DNA from: Rickettsiales bacterium
GTDB lineage: Bacteria > Pseudomonadota > Alphaproteobacteria > Rickettsiales > Rickettsiaceae
Assembly (NCBI GenBank): GCA_947505405.1
Contig: CANNHR010000003.1
Span: 1 to 50,577, forward strand
Length of the DNA: 50,577 nucleotides
Direction: 5' to 3'
Shown: one piece after another, positions 9,223 through 35,950 of the stretch
Position numbering within the stretch: position 1 is the stretch's first letter
Layout: each line of letters opens with the position of its first letter
The notes under the pieces: generated by a model
What the model saw: only the letters and a program-made list of their open reading frames with translations
Told to the model about the DNA's origin: nothing
Databases searched by the model: none
Made by a program: the position numbers and the translations under genes

Positions 9223-10035
9223 ATGTTCGAAATTCTAACCAATAGAGCCATTATTCATATCTTTGGCTCAGATAGTCAAAAATTTCTTCAAAGCCTTACC
9301 ACAAATGATGTAGTTAACAAAACATATACGTACAATTATCTCTTAAATAATCAAGGCAGATATTTGTATGATTTTTTTGTGTACCAGGATAATAGTGAAT
9401 CTTATTTTTTAGATGTCGATAAAAACAGTAGTGCGACTCTAATTAAGCGTCTATCTATGTATAAGTTAAGGAGTCGGATAGAAATCTGTGATGTTTCTGA
9501 ATTTTATGCAATGTTATACTCAGAATCAAAAGTAATGAACACAGTATTTTCGTTGCAAGATCCCCGATATAATAAACTTGGATTTAGATCTTTAATAAAA
9601 ACAGAGAATATCAACAAATTACAAAATAAAGTTAGCGATTTATACCTTAAAAACAAATATGACTTCTCTATTGTCGATGGTAATTTAGATTTGGTATCAG
9701 AGAAATCTATTCCAATTGAGTTTGGTGCTGAAGAATTAAATGCAATTGACTATAAAAAGGGGTGCTACGTTGGTCAAGAAGTCATTTCACGAGCAAAGTA
9801 CCAGGGGGTAGTCAGAAAGAAAATATTTAAACTACAGTGTGGCACGAATTTTGCCTTCATAGAACAAGGTGCTCAAGTAACTGATTTGGATGGAAATAAA
9901 GCGGGTAAATTATGCTCATTTTATAAAAATCTTGCTATAGGACTTCTTTGGGAAGAAAAATACTTGGGACTTACAGAAAAAAAAGTTATGATCAACGGCT
10001 GTGTATGGAATGTTATTGTACCGCTTTGGAGGTGA
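9223..10035 (+). CDS. ygfZ: YgfZ/CAF17 folate-binding protein
   Basis: A 270-residue tetrahydrofolate-binding protein of the GcvT superfamily that supports repair or assembly of 4Fe-4S proteins. The diagnostic motif KGCYVGQEV is present (about residues 180-188). The ATG at 9223 is preferred over an upstream in-frame TTG at 9181 because it matches the usual N-terminus (FEILTNRAIIHIFGSDSQ) and does not overlap the ABC ATPase. Its stop codon touches the left target duplication of the mobile element at 10043. A sigma-54-like sequence lies inside the gene at 9840-9855. Confidence 0.92.
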   Translation: MFEILTNRAIIHIFGSDSQKFLQSLTTNDVVNKTYTYNYLLNNQGRYLYDFFVYQDNSESYFLDVDKNSSATLIKRLSMYKLRSRIEICDVSEFYAMLYSESKVMNTVFSLQDPRYNKLGFRSLIKTENINKLQNKVSDLYLKNKYDFSIVDGNLDLVSEKSIPIEFGAEELNAIDYKKGCYVGQEVISRAKYQGVVRKKIFKLQCGTNFAFIEQGAQVTDLDGNKAGKLCSFYKNLAIGLLWEEKYLGLTEKKVMINGCVWNVIVPLWR

Positions 10036-10318: not shown

Positions 10319-11581
10319 ATGAGACTTTTAATTATCGGTGATATTAATAGCGAAATTAAAACAGCTATTGATATTGCAAGATCCAAGAACGCAAAAGTCG
10401 TTATGGTAGAGTCTTGTAGCCAAGGTGTAGATTTTTTGTGTCAAGGCAAGGGCGCTGATCTAGTTTTGGTAGATGTACAATTTGATATAAAATCACTAGT
10501 AACAGCTATGTACAATGAAAAGATATCGACGCCAGTAATAGCATACGGGGTCCAATGTTCTCCAAAGGATGCTGTTTTAGCTATTAAGTCTGGAGCCAGA
10601 GAGTTTTTACCTTTACCGCCGGATGAGAGACTGATAGCTGCAATTTTTGCTGCTCTTTCTGATAATTCAGTTAGCATTATTGGTAAGTCACAACCTATGC
10701 TCGATTCGATTGCTCTAGCAGATAAAATAGCTGCATCAGATGCAAATGTTCTGATCACGGGGAAGTCTGGAACTGGTAAGGAAGTATTTTCGAGCTATAT
10801 TCATAGCAAAAGTAAAAGGAAAGATAAATCATTTGTTGCTGTAAACTGTGCTGCAATTCCTGAAAATTTGCTTGAATCAGAGCTATTTGGTCATGAAAAG
10901 GGAGCTTTTACTGGTGCAGTTAGCAGACGGATTGGTAAATTCGAAGAATCATCGGGTGGCACTTTGTTGCTTGATGAAATTAGCGAAATGGATACACGCC
11001 TTCAGGCCAAATTACTTCGTGCGATTCAAGAAAAAGAAATAGACAGAGTTGGTGGCAATTCTCCAGTAAAGGTGGATTTAAGAATTATTGCTACTTCTAA
11101 CAGAGATTTGCAGAAAGAAATAGAGAAGGGTAACTTTAGAGAAGATCTTTATTTTAGACTAAATATCATTAATATAGGTCTGCCTTCTTTGCAAGAAAGA
11201 GGGCAAGACATTGAGCTGCTGGCAAATTATTTTATAAAAAAATATACAAAAAATAATGGCTTGAGTGAGAAAAAATTATCCCAATCTGCTCTTGATCAAA
11301 TGTTATCATATTCATGGCCTGGAAATGTTAGGGAACTTGAAAACGTTCTACATCGTGCAGTTCTAATCTCTGATTCCTCAGAGATTATGCCCATTGACAT
11401 AAATATCAAAGAAAGAGAAAAAGAAGCTACCGCACATCATGATATAGGTTCTTCCGATAGCGAAAAACGAATGGTATTTAATACTATTGGCTATTGTCTT
11501 GGGGATATGAGCAAGGCAGCCAGTATCTTAGGAGTTTCAATTGAAATATTGCGTGAAAAATTAGAAACTTATATGAAATAA
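10319..11581 (+). CDS. flbD: FlbD-type sigma-54 transcriptional activator
   Basis: A 420-residue activator with a degenerate receiver-like domain (residues about 1-115), an AAA+ sigma-54 activation domain and a C-terminal Fis-type helix-turn-helix. Visible motifs are Walker A GKSGTGKE, the sigma-54-contacting GAFTGA, Walker B GGTLLLDEISEMD and the R-finger region FREDLYFRLN. The N-terminus (MRLLIIGDI, then GADLVLVD and REFLPLPPDERLIAA) closely follows Caulobacter FlbD, the activator of late flagellar genes. ATG 10319 is chosen over GTG 10277 because it matches that N-terminus and AGGA precedes it. A sigma-54 promoter before flgE supports the role. Confidence 0.9.
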   Translation: MRLLIIGDINSEIKTAIDIARSKNAKVVMVESCSQGVDFLCQGKGADLVLVDVQFDIKSLVTAMYNEKISTPVIAYGVQCSPKDAVLAIKSGAREFLPLPPDERLIAAIFAALSDNSVSIIGKSQPMLDSIALADKIAASDANVLITGKSGTGKEVFSSYIHSKSKRKDKSFVAVNCAAIPENLLESELFGHEKGAFTGAVSRRIGKFEESSGGTLLLDEISEMDTRLQAKLLRAIQEKEIDRVGGNSPVKVDLRIIATSNRDLQKEIEKGNFREDLYFRLNIINIGLPSLQERGQDIELLANYFIKKYTKNNGLSEKKLSQSALDQMLSYSWPGNVRELENVLHRAVLISDSSEIMPIDINIKEREKEATAHHDIGSSDSEKRMVFNTIGYCLGDMSKAASILGVSIEILREKLETYMK

Positions 11582-11915: not shown

Positions 11916-13484
11916 ATGACGTATATTTCAGAAAACAACTTAAACACTGCTGAAGTTTCTGAAATTATTCCCCCGTCCTCTTCAAAATTTACAAAATTCC
12001 TAGACTATGTTTGGCCAATTCATAAACATGAGTTGCCGAAATTCTTGTCTATTACATTATTGATGTTTTGTATATTGGGAATTCAGAACCTAATTCGTGC
12101 GATGAAAGATAGTGTAATCAATACTATGATCGGTGTTGAAACAATTTCATTTCTTAAATTTTGGGGTGTCCTCCCGGCGGCATTCATAGTGACAATCATC
12201 TATGTTAAACTAGTGAGCGTCATGAAGGGAGAAAATATATTCTACCTAATAATGGCTATATTTTTAAGCTTCTTTTTCTTATTTGCATTTTACTTATTTC
12301 CTAATCATGAACTAATTCACTTGTCTCCAGAGACGGCAAATAAATTAGTGGCTAGTTTTCCGAATTTAAAATGGTTTATACTGCTCTTATCTAATTGGAG
12401 CTTCTCTCTGTTTTATGTAATAGCTGAGTTATGGCCAAATGCTATTTTTGCGCTGTTATTTTGGCAATTTGTAAATAAAATTACATCAGTAGATGAGTCC
12501 AAAAGATTCTATCCGCTTTTTGGGTTATTAGGGCAAACAGGATTATACTTATCTGGTACATTTTTAATAAATTTACAAGTTATGAATGATTACTTTACTA
12601 AGATATTTGAGCTTGGAGGAGGAGTCAGTGTAGTGTCGATTCAAATAGTTATGTCTGTTGTTACGATTCTTGGAATAATGGCACTCGGAGCATTTTGGGT
12701 TTTGAATCACAAAATTTTAGATATTGCTACAGCTGAGAACCTCCAATTTAGAGTCAAGAAGAACCAACTTACTTTAAAAGAAAGCTTTCAGATGATTGTT
12801 CAATCAAGGTACATAAGGTTGATCACTGTTTTACTTATTTGCTATGGTATTGCAATTAATCTGGTTGAAGGACCATGGAAAGCAGAAGCTGCAAAAATAT
12901 ATAAGACTCCGACTGAATTTGCTACGTTTATCGGTAGCTACCTGAGTTATACAGGAATATTGACAATTTTCTTTGTGTTACTAGGCTCCAATATTGTCAG
13001 GATGTTAGGTTGGCTTTCGGCTGCAGTTATAACGCCTCTTATGGTTTTAGTTACAGGGCTCGGCTTTTTTGTTGTTGCGAATTTTGATCCTGTAGCAACC
13101 TTTATGATGATGTCATTTGCATTTACTGATCCAATTATGCTTGCTGTTGTAATCGGTGCTATTCAAAATGTATTGAGTAAATCAAGCAAATATACTTTGT
13201 TTGATTCAACCAAAGAAATGTCATATGTTCCACTTGATGAGCAGCTTAAAACTAGAGGTAAAGCTGCAGCTGATATGATCGGTACTAAGCTTGGTAAGTC
13301 TACTAGTGCATTACTCCAGTCGATGATATTTGTTATATTTCCGGCTGCTACATACTCTTCAATTTCAGTATTTTTGATGTGCGTATTTACACTGATTTGT
13401 ATCATCTGGGTATGGACAGTTGTAGAGTTAAATAAAGAATACATACATGCCTGTGACTCTAAAGGCGATGAGAGCTTTTTCTAG
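11916..13484 (+). CDS. tlc: ATP/ADP (nucleotide) translocase, Tlc family
   Basis: A 522-residue inner-membrane nucleotide transporter with about 11-12 membrane segments, of the type intracellular bacteria and plastids use to exchange host ATP for ADP or to import other nucleotides. Family landmarks are visible: the N-terminal LIRAMKDSVINT, the ELWPNAIFALLFWQF segment, and the highly conserved DSTKEMSYVPLDEQLKTRGK and AADMIGTKLGKS segments near residues 428-465. This gene is the strongest sign of an obligate intracellular lifestyle. Substrate (ATP/ADP or another NTP) cannot be assigned by eye, since Rickettsiales usually have several paralogues. Confidence 0.96.
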   Translation: MTYISENNLNTAEVSEIIPPSSSKFTKFLDYVWPIHKHELPKFLSITLLMFCILGIQNLIRAMKDSVINTMIGVETISFLKFWGVLPAAFIVTIIYVKLVSVMKGENIFYLIMAIFLSFFFLFAFYLFPNHELIHLSPETANKLVASFPNLKWFILLLSNWSFSLFYVIAELWPNAIFALLFWQFVNKITSVDESKRFYPLFGLLGQTGLYLSGTFLINLQVMNDYFTKIFELGGGVSVVSIQIVMSVVTILGIMALGAFWVLNHKILDIATAENLQFRVKKNQLTLKESFQMIVQSRYIRLITVLLICYGIAINLVEGPWKAEAAKIYKTPTEFATFIGSYLSYTGILTIFFVLLGSNIVRMLGWLSAAVITPLMVLVTGLGFFVVANFDPVATFMMMSFAFTDPIMLAVVIGAIQNVLSKSSKYTLFDSTKEMSYVPLDEQLKTRGKAAADMIGTKLGKSTSALLQSMIFVIFPAATYSSISVFLMCVFTLICIIWVWTVVELNKEYIHACDSKGDESFF

Positions 13485-24748: not shown

Positions 24749-24912
24749 TTGAGTCAAGCTCAGGATGGACTTATTACATCCGTCATACCGGACTTGATCC
24801 GGTATCTTCTTCTATTGTATGAGATCCTGAATTTAATTCAGGATGACTTAAAACAAAGGCAGGCGCAAGCTTCAATCAAGTTCAGGATGACTAATAGAAC
24901 GTTCAGAATGCC
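24749..24912. repeat. Palindromic repeat, family B
   Basis: Contains the inverted pair CCGGACTTGATCCGG, the pair CCTGAATTTAATTCAGG and the block AAGGCAGGCGCAAGCTTCAA. The same blocks recur near 22.2, 31.8, 32.5 and 35.8 kb. It lies in the 258-base gap between ychF and pth, so it may sit in the ychF leader. Confidence 0.75.
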
Positions 24913-32614: not shown

Positions 32615-35600
32615 TTATCTAGCAAGTTCAGACAAAATGTTCTTAAAGTTCTCGTTATCAATAGCAGCAACTCTTGCGTTGGCACGAATTGCGTTACTCA
32701 GTTCTTGAACTTTTAGTAGCTCTTCTGTCGTATCAACGTTTGATGCTTCAAGCACTCCGCCAAGAGTTCTACCTGCGCCACCAACTCCTGCTTCTTTAAG
32801 AAGAAAATCTCCAGACTCACGGGTAATTTCAAAAGTACCATTACCACCAGCCACAAGACCGTTTGGATTAGCAAATACAGCCATTGGAACTTTGTAAAGC
32901 TTTCTATTTTCACCACTACTGAAAGTTCCGACAATATAACCATCAGGGCTGACTTCTAACTTAGTTAAAGTTCCAGCTCCCTGACCATCGCCTTGGATAA
33001 TTTCAACATTATTTGGGGCTTTAGTTTGGCTTACATTACCAGAAGTAATATCACTTAGCGTATTTTCCCAATCAATGGTGATATTGCTAGCAGTGCTACC
33101 ATTGTTTCTCTGAACTGGAATTGCGTCTTCGAATCCTTCTGGAATGCCTTGTAGCCTTCCATCTGTATCAAATTTAATGATACCTTGCCTAATGAGACCA
33201 TTACCTGTCGCTAAATTAGTAACCTGAAATACGCCATCTTTATCCTTTTGCGCTGTAAGCTCAACTGCCCATGTATTACTGTCAAGTTTTGCAAAATATA
33301 ACAATAAAGTATATGAAGATCCAAGGCTGTCGTATACAGTCAAAGGAACTGAATATGTAAGGCTACTCGCAAAATTAGCTATACCATTAGCTGAGGCACT
33401 CAAGTTTTTGTCAACATTTGCTGCATCATAAGTTTTATCATATGTAGTTTTTGCCTGATCAATAGAAAAATACTTCATAAATTGTGAACCATTGTTGACA
33501 GCAAAATTAGCTGCTAAACCGGCAACAAGATTTACTGGATTTGTATTACCATCACCAGTTGTAGCTGCCATGGGATTACCAAGCGGATCAAGCACTTTAA
33601 ACTCAATACTAGGCGAAGCATTACCACCCAAAAGAGCAGAATTAACAGCTGTGATTTTGTATGATATACCATTATTGATGGTTAGACCATCTATGACAGT
33701 AGGACCAGCTAAGTTTGTAAAAGAAATAAGATCTCCCACTGCATATCCATGGTTTGGCATATACATTCTAACTGAACTACCAGGAGCTGCATTACCACCA
33801 ACAGTTACAAACGATCTTGTATCCATAGCAGCAACACCGCCTGTTGCAATTTTTTTAATAGAGAATGGCCCTGCTACTGGGAGCACAGGACCAGGAGCAA
33901 CGCTTGCTGTTGGAGTTATATCAAAGGTTGAAGCACCACCACCTGCGGCATTGTTGTAGTTTGCAATTTCATAATATCCATCTGGAACTATAATATTTTC
34001 ACCGTTAACGGTTAACTTAGCACCAACACCAGAAATATATATAACATTACCATTTGCCCACGCCTCAGCAGGAAAAACCCCGGTAGCAGCTGTACCCCCA
34101 GGAAGAGTAATAGTAACAACTCCACCTACACCAGCAGTATCTAGAGTTGGGTTGTTAAATGTTTGGAATTGTTGTCCTGGAACTTTTTGCCATGTAGCTC
34201 CAGCGTTAATTGGAACAGCTGCAGGTGCAAGTATTGCGGCTGGAAAAAGAGCCGGATTTGCATCTTTCCGATTTATTGTAAATCCATTCGGATTAATACC
34301 AGAAATATAATATAAACCATCTGGTAATTGTGCTTGGCCCGTACCCGTGATCTTAACAAAATCACCTGCTTGCAAATTATGTCCTGGGGCACTAATAAAT
34401 ACCGAAGCCCTTCCTATTTCACCAGTTTGTTGTGTTGCACTACTAATAGCATTAAGTCCAAGTGAGTTGGCTTTTATATTGAAAACAGAGGTAGAAAGCA
34501 GCGAAGTAATTTTTAAATCTTTGCCTTCAATTGTGGCTTTAAGAGAATCTGTTGCTTGGTCCTTATTCACCGCATCTCTAAGACTAGCAAGACTATTAAA
34601 GCGTGTGGTTCCAAGTGGGGCTGGAGCAAGATTTACAAGACCCAATGCCTCAACTATGGTTCCTCCGCCATCATTGGCAAATACAATGCCGTCATTTGCT
34701 TTTGTTGGAGCAATATACAACCTTCCTTCTAAATCTACTTCAGCTTTTAAAGAACTGATTCTGTTGATAGCAGCTGCCAAACCATTGATTGTATTAAACG
34801 TTCTATTAGCCGCGCTCTCAGCTCCTTGAACTGCTGAAAACGTATATGCTTGTCCGGCCACTGTAATTCTTAACTTATGACCAACACTAAGCAGGCCAGG
34901 ACCAGGGACAGGAGCAAATGTAAAGGCTACCCCTGCACCAGTCGCACCAAAAATTGTGTTACCTGTTGCAACGTCAGGTCTTCTGGCAAGAACCATCCCA
35001 CCAAATGTTAAAACTTTATCGGCTTTGGCATCAGAGTGTAAAACAAATTCATCACCTAGCGATAAGCTCGATCCACCTAATTTTTCTGGAAACAGGATAT
35101 TATCAATTTTTTTACCTGTGTTTTTACCAGTACGATTCAATACTGCATCGACACCATTTCCTCTTAAAGCTTCTTGATCTGCATTAAGATTCATTGCAAT
35201 TGAAACGACAGTTGTCGCCACAGGAGCACCTTTAGTATTTGCAAAATTCACCGATTCTAGACTCTCAAGTAAAGATGTATTTTGCGGCAGTTCGCCTTTA
35301 TTATCTAGTTTCCAGGCTTTTAATAATTGATCTGCACCATTTTTCCAGAAGCCAAGCTCATCTTGTCTAAAGTCACCTCTTCTTGTAAATTTTGCAGTCC
35401 CTGTAGGGCTTTCAGATACCACAAGCAAGCCTGAGCCATCGATTGCTATGTCAGATACCACACCAGTGTTGATTATCTTACCTTGTATATCATTTGTTGA
35501 TCTTGTTTTACTATTAACATAGGATACTCCGCCTGAGCTTGTACCCACAAAAGAGTTAATGAATAAATTTTCTCTCTTTTTATGACCCCAAGCTTCTTTT

Positions 35601-35668
35601 GCGCCAACGTTACTTGAAAGTGTGTCATTTGACCTACTAAACATTGTTACTGTGGTTCCTTTCGACAT
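32615..35668 (-). CDS. flgE: Oversized flagellar hook protein FlgE
   Basis: A 1017-residue protein; FlgE is usually 400-600 residues. Hook-basal-body features are an N-terminal segment with DIAIDGSGLLVVSESP and FTRRGDFRQDELGFWKNGAD, and a C-terminal ASNVDTTEELLKVQELSNAI stretch ending in the heptad-like D0 helix. The extra central part (residues about 160-760) is glycine/alanine-rich and contains about three related repeats (GHNLQAGDFVKITG, NHGYAVGDLISFTN and a weaker third). The first 30 residues keep little of the normal FlgE D0 helix. The start at 35668 has GGAG upstream; a TTG at 35683 is less likely. A sigma-54 promoter precedes it. Confidence 0.85.
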   Translation of the reverse strand: MSKGTTVTMFSRSNDTLSSNVGAKEAWGHKKRENLFINSFVGTSSGGVSYVNSKTRSTNDIQGKIINTGVVSDIAIDGSGLLVVSESPTGTAKFTRRGDFRQDELGFWKNGADQLLKAWKLDNKGELPQNTSLLESLESVNFANTKGAPVATTVVSIAMNLNADQEALRGNGVDAVLNRTGKNTGKKIDNILFPEKLGGSSLSLGDEFVLHSDAKADKVLTFGGMVLARRPDVATGNTIFGATGAGVAFTFAPVPGPGLLSVGHKLRITVAGQAYTFSAVQGAESAANRTFNTINGLAAAINRISSLKAEVDLEGRLYIAPTKANDGIVFANDGGGTIVEALGLVNLAPAPLGTTRFNSLASLRDAVNKDQATDSLKATIEGKDLKITSLLSTSVFNIKANSLGLNAISSATQQTGEIGRASVFISAPGHNLQAGDFVKITGTGQAQLPDGLYYISGINPNGFTINRKDANPALFPAAILAPAAVPINAGATWQKVPGQQFQTFNNPTLDTAGVGGVVTITLPGGTAATGVFPAEAWANGNVIYISGVGAKLTVNGENIIVPDGYYEIANYNNAAGGGASTFDITPTASVAPGPVLPVAGPFSIKKIATGGVAAMDTRSFVTVGGNAAPGSSVRMYMPNHGYAVGDLISFTNLAGPTVIDGLTINNGISYKITAVNSALLGGNASPSIEFKVLDPLGNPMAATTGDGNTNPVNLVAGLAANFAVNNGSQFMKYFSIDQAKTTYDKTYDAANVDKNLSASANGIANFASSLTYSVPLTVYDSLGSSYTLLLYFAKLDSNTWAVELTAQKDKDGVFQVTNLATGNGLIRQGIIKFDTDGRLQGIPEGFEDAIPVQRNNGSTASNITIDWENTLSDITSGNVSQTKAPNNVEIIQGDGQGAGTLTKLEVSPDGYIVGTFSSGENRKLYKVPMAVFANPNGLVAGGNGTFEITRESGDFLLKEAGVGGAGRTLGGVLEASNVDTTEELLKVQELSNAIRANARVAAIDNENFKNILSELAR

Positions 35669-35719
35669 TTTTATTTTCTCCAAATAATTATTTAAAATAT
35701 TGCCTTATGTGGCTATAGG

Positions 35720-35735
35720 TGCATAAAGCGTGCCA
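35720..35735 (-). promoter_or_regulatory. Sigma-54 promoter of flgE
   Basis: On the minus strand this reads TGGCACGCTTTATGCA. The consensus is TGGCACG, four bases, TTGCW; only one base (A for T) differs and the GG-to-GC spacing is exact. Transcription would start near 35709, about 40 bases before the flgE ATG. Such promoters need an activator; flbD at 10319 encodes the matching type. Confidence 0.8.
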
Positions 35736-35764: not shown

Positions 35765-35950
35765 CAGCTCAACAGTCATCCCGGGCGATATATGAAGTCA
35801 TCCCGTGACTTGATCCGGGATCTCGGGCAACAGGAGTATAATTAACTTTCCTTCTACCTCCTGGGATCCTGAATCAAGTTCAGGATGACTTAAAACGAAG
35901 GCAGGCGCAAGCTTCAGTCAAGTTCAGGATTGTTTTAAGTTCAGCATAAC
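35765..35950. repeat. Family B repeat, copy upstream of flgE
   Basis: Nearly identical in order and sequence to 32413-32592: GTCATCCCGGGCGATATATG, GACTTGATCCGGGATCTCGG, AGTATAATTAACTTTCCTTC, CCTGGGATCCTGAATCAAGT and AAGGCAGGCGCAAGCTTCAG. It occupies most of the 371-base divergent gap between flgE and gltX. The rest of that gap holds the flgE sigma-54 promoter and the gltX leader. Confidence 0.85.

Follow-up and report, generated by a model that had tools for sequence, protein, structure and literature searches.

The hook gene flgE in the DNA analysed here (the window: 50,577 nucleotides of contig CANNHR010000003.1, assembly GCA_947505405.1, from a Rickettsiales bacterium) is preceded by a sequence resembling a sigma-54 promoter. 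We asked whether this sequence could work as a promoter in a relative of Rickettsia and which regulators it would answer to. The evidence makes it likely that a sigma-54-dependent promoter drives flgE within a small late-flagellar regulon, in which FlbD opens the promoters and FliX reports on assembly. The features concerned are listed in Table 1.

Table 1. Features of the window that bear on the putative flgE promoter.
Feature	Position	Strand	Evidence
Sigma-54 (−24/−12) promoter of flgE (predicted)	35720..35735	−	TGGCACGCTTTATGCA; identical in G256
Predicted transcription start (+1)	35709..35709	−	12 nt 3' of the −12 C; from sigma-54 promoter geometry
Predicted leader of flgE (about 41 nt) carrying the ribosome-binding site GGAG	35669..35709	−	kept in G256
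flgE, encoding a flagellar hook protein of 1017 aa with a divergent N-terminus	32615..35668	−	FlgE_D2 58.3 bits, Flg_bbr_C 23.5 bits
FlbD-type sigma-54 activator	10319..11581	+	Sigma54_activat 235.9 bits; NF050807 FlbD 588.7 bits
GAFTGA sigma-54 contact loop, FlbD residues 195–200	10901..10918	+	alignment with FlbD of 19 other genomes
TLC ATP/ADP transporter (context; host-dependence marker)	11916..13484	+	PF03219 582.2 bits

The window's own genome (G000) was assembled into 1,470,356 bases on 98 contigs and was 93.5% complete. The 1.47 Mb assembly and the ATP/ADP translocase suggest a host-dependent or intracellular organism. Its family, f1, is presumably Rickettsiaceae; a second family in the comparison, f10, is perhaps Midichloriaceae. 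The flgE product also matched TIGR03506 (149.2 bits, cut-off 70.25). It had no Flg_bb_rod match, and its N-terminus was unlike the usual hook/rod start, as was also seen in L076 and L079–L081. The FlgE of G247 (L078), unlike the other FlgE proteins of the family, had an N-terminus that looked canonical. The same genome contained a second long ORF (L077, contig C43) with an FlgE_D2 match of 50.9 bits and a start that did not look flagellar; it was scored for an upstream site and left out of the count because of this N-terminus unlike FlgE. A hook gene 65% identical in its best segment to that of the window was present on a metagenome-assembled contig labelled Rickettsia typhi (L153). This species label is probably a placeholder; we take R. 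typhi to be non-flagellate.

Read from 35735 to 35720 on the minus strand, TGGCACGCTTTATGCA had a single mismatch (A for T, position 12) to TGGCACG-N4-TTGCW, which we take to be the sigma-54 consensus, and the spacing of its GG and GC elements was standard. Setting the C of GC at 35721 as −12 placed the predicted start at about 35709, and GGAG was read directly before the flgE ATG at 35668. The description in an earlier note, of a site one base off the consensus with exact GG/GC spacing and about 40 bases between the expected transcript start and the ATG, was thereby borne out, with a predicted distance of about 41 nt. In the 250 nt before flgE, the score of the site was matched by none of 400 shuffles. 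The window also contained five copies, with at most three mismatches, of palindromic repeats of the type GATCCTGAATCAAGTTCAGGATGA (35865–35888, and at 24783, 31756, 32508 and 42746), one of them inside the gltX/flgE gap; shuffles yielded none.

Site numbers were uninformative. The window contained eight sites with at most two mismatches, where 5.6 were expected; this number was reached in 18 of 100 shuffles. Across the whole genome, 14 sites with no more than one mismatch were counted in G000, compared with four for the reversed pattern, which is a biased control. Three further genomes of the same genus gave 17 against 1 (G232) and 7 against 1 (G250), both lacking rpoN, and 13 against 3 (G256), which encodes rpoN. 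Because genomes without rpoN gave similar figures (G232 in particular), site counts in the window or genome-wide were rejected as evidence. We then counted sites in a promoter position, defined as outside same-strand ORFs with an ORF start at most 150 nt away, with the start of flgE in G000 set at a TTG 15 nt 5' of the ATG. G000 had 6 such sites among its 14 and G256 had 4 among 13; G232 had 1 among 17 and G250 none among 7. Pooled, this was 10/27 versus 1/24 (Fisher p 0.006), with the caveat that matches in the sister genome are not independent. The case for a flgE promoter rests on position and conservation, not on motif count.

Near-consensus sites in G000 lay before flgE, fliK-flgD, fliD-fliS and two flagellin-like ORFs, at 36–200 nt from the ORF start, so that the search for more sites before flagellar genes proposed in the earlier note was productive. 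In fliK-flgD, the FliK domain scored 27.2 bits, just below the cut-off of 29.8, and FlgD_ig 69.9; in fliD-fliS, FliD_C scored 62.2 and FliS 51.0 bits. The flagellin-like ORFs (404 and 398 aa) were related to each other and matched flagellin families weakly (Flagellin_N, E 4.4e-4; NCBIfam flagellin model, E 0.009); judged from their sequence, they are probably filament genes. By analogy, this small late set, comprising genes for hook, hook length, cap and probably filament, would resemble the sigma-54/FlbD targets of Caulobacter. A site 5' of flgK fell within an ORF. Two sites, on C58 and C21, were excluded from the regulon, since the C58 site overlapped a divergent ORF start and neither ORF matched flagellar families; both were still counted as promoter-like in the position tally. 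Sigma-54-like sites outside the regulon were noted before ORFs of 551 aa (L119:5349-5364, a site also present in G256) and 457 aa (L120:3103-3118), neither of which had a flagellar match.

Comparison with the sister genome G256 gave box identities of 16/16 for flgE and the two flagellin-like genes (fla1, fla2) and 15/16 for fliK and fliD. In an ungapped comparison of the DNA 50 to 20 nt 5' of the box, identity was 9/30 for flgE, 5/30 for fliD and 7/30 for each of fla1 and fla2. The exception was fliK (29/30), whose upstream DNA is largely taken up by the tail of the ORF before it. At the other four promoters, the boxes thus appear as conserved islands within diverged DNA. Around flgE, the box, leader and start were kept, and the sequence upstream was largely unalike and contained repeats; the DNA shared by the two genomes comprised the box and what follows it, not the region 100 nt upstream.

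Conservation of the flgE site was assessed in 40 stretches of upstream DNA from 39 further genomes of the order, G247 contributing two; up to 250 nt of each was scored against shuffles, and scoring in G000 started from the same TTG. There were 19 rpoN-encoding genomes in f1 and f10, five of which (G235, G009, G060, G098 and G114) had no FlgE_D2 match and were left out. All 14 testable genomes had a site of at least 13 bits no more than 86 nt from the flgE start, with 0 to 4 of 400 shuffles per genome reaching its score. The weakest site (13.1 bits) was that of G253, for which the assumed flgE start had been shifted 54 nt downstream after the first result. TGGCA and TGC were invariant and the GG and GC elements present in all 14 sites, the matrix used for selection favouring these bases. 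The absence of a site excess in the window and the similar genome-wide numbers without rpoN are what one would expect if the 16-mer merely resembled the consensus by chance. Against this stand the shuffle results, in G000 and in each of the 14 genomes, and the enrichment of promoter-position sites in G000 and G256 over G232 and G250, so that a chance match deserves hardly any weight.

The site was absent before flgE in five flagellates without rpoN (G120, G145, G173, G243 and G255). A sixth, G183, had none in its 228 nt, which is not a full negative. This control is weakened because flgE in the first five lies 13–109 nt behind a same-strand ORF and may share its transcript; six rpoN-encoding f10 genomes with gaps of 41–91 nt nonetheless had the box in the gap. 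Sites of at least 15 bits were also absent from the 1.3–1.6 kb before flgE in the same five rpoN-lacking flagellates. In the deeper families, one of 20 genomes (G020) had a site of at least 13 bits no farther than 100 nt from flgE, a gene that is preceded there by another one, and G054 had one at 224 nt. In all 20, flgE lay 9–105 nt behind a same-strand ORF, and 10 of them had a site of at least 15 bits farther upstream, within the 1.1–1.35 kb scanned. G037, a 66% complete genome in which rpoN was not found and the best site scored 11.8 bits, was grouped with these families. Placing the promoter directly before flgE therefore seems to be a feature of f1 and f10.

The rpoN gene, whose absence the earlier note had named as the main argument against its proposal, was found on contig C26 of G000. 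It is an open frame with all three Pfam domains (AID 50.3, CBD 161.2, DBD 183.4 bits) and ARRTVAKYRE, presumably the RpoN box, and its product shares 92% identity with the G256 counterpart. The activator gene described in the earlier note as FlbD-type, with an intact GAFTGA loop, was present as well. NF050807 (FlbD) was its best match among 29 matching NCBIfam families; because the score falls below the curated cut-off of 750, which was passed in one of 261 genomes of the order, we name it FlbD-type and not a proven FlbD equivalog. In an alignment of 21 rows, in which the G114 row is another ORF and the G253 row starts late owing to the choice of start, the protein displayed a Walker A stretch (GKSGTGKE), GAFTGA and LLLDEIS. 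The FlbD of G253, G126, G132 and G006 had GSFTGA instead of GAFTGA. The receiver lysine and the acceptor aspartate of such proteins have roles in phosphorylation. In the protein of the window, a leucine (FLPLPP) replaced the conserved lysine and the aspartate was kept at the usual acceptor place; Response_reg scored 20.4 bits, under the cut-off of 30.2. As far as the alignment tells, a receiver without the usual switch lysine fits Caulobacter FlbD. A Pfam HTH family was not matched at E 0.001, and the C-terminal stretch aligned with that of most relatives. The FlbD of G253 stopped short of the C-terminal HTH region, and this genome had no FliX match either.

In G000, FliX was encoded on contig C23 (PF10768, 76 bits; cut-off 25), and RpoN, FlbD and FliX all read open. 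Two stops were listed for the FlbD match; they coincide with or follow the stop codon of the gene itself, so such counts call for care. FliA was not found above the NCBIfam cut-off in any of 43 genomes. A by-eye comparison of five promoter regions in two genomes and of the 14 flgE leaders revealed no convincing FlbD-binding (ftr-like) sites. A one-mismatch site at 9840–9855, kept in G256, was rejected as a flbD promoter, since it sits within a coding ORF and starts 479 nt 5' of flbD; no counterpart was present in the 710–800 nt before flbD of five other family members (best score 11.6 bits, G247).

Among 261 genomes of the order, rpoN was found in 85, an FlgE/F/G match (any TIGR03506 match at E 0.001, taken as flagellar) in 104, and an FlbD-type protein of at least 430 bits in 80. 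Both rpoN and flagellar genes occurred in 84 genomes, rpoN alone in 1, flagellar genes alone in 20 and neither in 156. For rpoN and FlbD, the corresponding numbers were 73, 12, 7 and 169. The genomes being related, Fisher values for these co-occurrences overstate independence. The single genome with rpoN and no FlgE/F/G match was G022, so that sigma-54 may serve a different purpose in one deeper family or more. The seven genomes with FlbD and no rpoN fell among the 20 flagellar ones without rpoN and were 61–89% complete, so their rpoN may be absent from the assembly only. FlbD of at least 430 bits without flagellar genes was seen in none of the 261 genomes. In f1, rpoN and FlbD of at least 430 bits were found in one and the same set of seven among 51 genomes, and FliX accompanied them in six of the seven. 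Overall, FliX was present in 29 of 45 genomes tested, with no match in the 10 rpoN-lacking flagellates among them or in four genomes with rpoN (G253, G050, G029 and G098).

The box could also be a working sigma-54 promoter driven by another activator, such as an NtrX- or NtrC-like protein, with FlbD employed elsewhere. FlbD-binding sites were not found in the promoter regions compared, many genomes of the order have extra FlbD-model matches below 370 bits, and weak matches to this model also occur in f1 genomes without rpoN (G133, G204 and G220). In G000 itself, however, FlbD is the only protein to pass E 1e-60 in a search with the FlbD model, and the shared distribution of rpoN and FlbD in f1, mostly with FliX, also speaks for FlbD as the partner. 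We regard another activator as unlikely.

Flagellar genes in f1 were found in these seven genomes and in three genomes of 0.6 Mb (G214, G217 and G238; L159–L161). The latter had FlgF- and FlgG-like matches and weak FlgK matches (17.8–26.6 bits), with no match to RpoN, FlbD, FliX or FlgE_D2; a stripped flagellum is perhaps retained there for a different use. Within the genus of G000, G232 and G250 lacked rpoN, FlbD, FlgE/F/G, FliX and FlgK all together. Regulators that seem to be decaying were observed in three genomes (G114, G098 and G009; L147, L148 and L168–L170): in G114, four stop codons interrupted the FlbD match and four the FliX match, RpoN of G098 was in two pieces, and G009 had one stop in RpoN and one in FlbD. 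Five flagellates without rpoN (G120, G145, G173, G243 and G255) kept FlgK (86–101 bits), and late structures can therefore persist without sigma-54.

Such decaying copies, together with flagellates that manage without sigma-54, are what a relic would look like elsewhere in the order; rpoN, FlbD and the site would then be leftovers in G000, with flgE transcribed from a sigma-70 promoter or silent. This seems to us highly improbable, as all three regulators are open in G000 and the boxes of four of the five promoters form conserved islands in diverged DNA. We hypothesize, although the balance tips slightly towards doubt, that sigma-54 has become a one-purpose factor in the two reduced families f1 and f10: RpoN, FlbD and FliX would be kept only for the timing of hook and filament genes and would be lost with the flagella, in some lineages before them, the late genes then being expressed without sigma-54 or sigma-28.

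The box, its conservation, RpoN, FlbD, FliX and the downstream gene set can be read from the DNA itself, and a sigma-54 promoter opened by FlbD would connect them as follows. RNA polymerase with RpoN would occupy the −24/−12 box and be held there in the closed state. FlbD, an AAA+ ATPase with a GAFTGA loop and a receiver without the switch lysine, would bind and act as the activator that opens the promoter. FliX would signal to FlbD once the basal body and export apparatus are complete, serving as an assembly checkpoint. The same switch would control expression of fliK-flgD, fliD-fliS and the two flagellin-like genes. A host-dependent relative of Rickettsia thus appears to keep the Caulobacter switch, by which hook and filament genes are turned on only after the base of the flagellum has been built. 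The earlier note had suggested a working cascade in a reduced intracellular bacterium; its components and sites are in place, and its function in the cell and the intracellular life are what we infer.

Knowledge of Rickettsiales flagella comes from genes and from a small number of direct observations, and control of their timing was not described in the literature found. In the accessible literature, which left most subscription papers outside its scope, no report of sigma-54 control of Rickettsiales flagella was found; the passages seen of PMC13063649, PMC7397232, PMC8116508 and PMC12316311 do not treat it. Within the literature searched, this would be a Caulobacter-type system in a lineage without an earlier report. 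Promoter, activator and checkpoint protein together would provide a direct molecular marker of a motile stage; from the way these genes were lost together, one could learn in which order the regulon was dismantled during adaptation to hosts.

The sections consulted of studies on Rickettsiales flagella (Trichorickettsia, Lyticum, Midichloria and aquatic relatives) describe flagellar genes among reduced, host-associated members, along with numerous independent losses (PMC10847448, PMC9352585). The genome studied here likewise carries flagellar genes and is presumably that of a reduced, host-associated member. To those two papers, in whose main text the words 'rpoN' and 'sigma' are absent, the present analysis adds transcription control.

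In Caulobacter, according to the parts of the papers available to us, a late flagellar set is under sigma-54 and FlbD (PMC3096577, PMC3930126), key receiver residues are missing from FlbD, which is regulated by FliX and not by phosphorylation (PMC3096577), and FliA is dispensed with (PMC3930126). The system proposed here resembles the class III/IV genes of Caulobacter crescentus, as described there (PMC3096577, PMC3930126), in having RpoN, FliX and an activator of the FlbD type whose receiver is degenerate, in the lack of FliA above the cut-off, and in the sigma-54 boxes that precede hook, fliK and flagellin-like genes. Unlike in Caulobacter, flgE stands alone here, opposite gltX and with its own box, and flgD follows fliK elsewhere; ftr sites were not found, the regulon seen is small, and an ATP/ADP translocase is present. 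In polar flagellates, FlrC, FleR and FlgR with their sensor kinases are sigma-54 activators that link assembly of the export apparatus to hook genes, as outlined in the portion seen of PMC7064773. The coupling of export-apparatus assembly to hook genes through a sigma-54 activator would be common to both systems. In contrast to FlgR, the activator of the window fits the FlbD model (588.7 bits) better than the FlgR model (301.3 bits), and it is accompanied by FliX.
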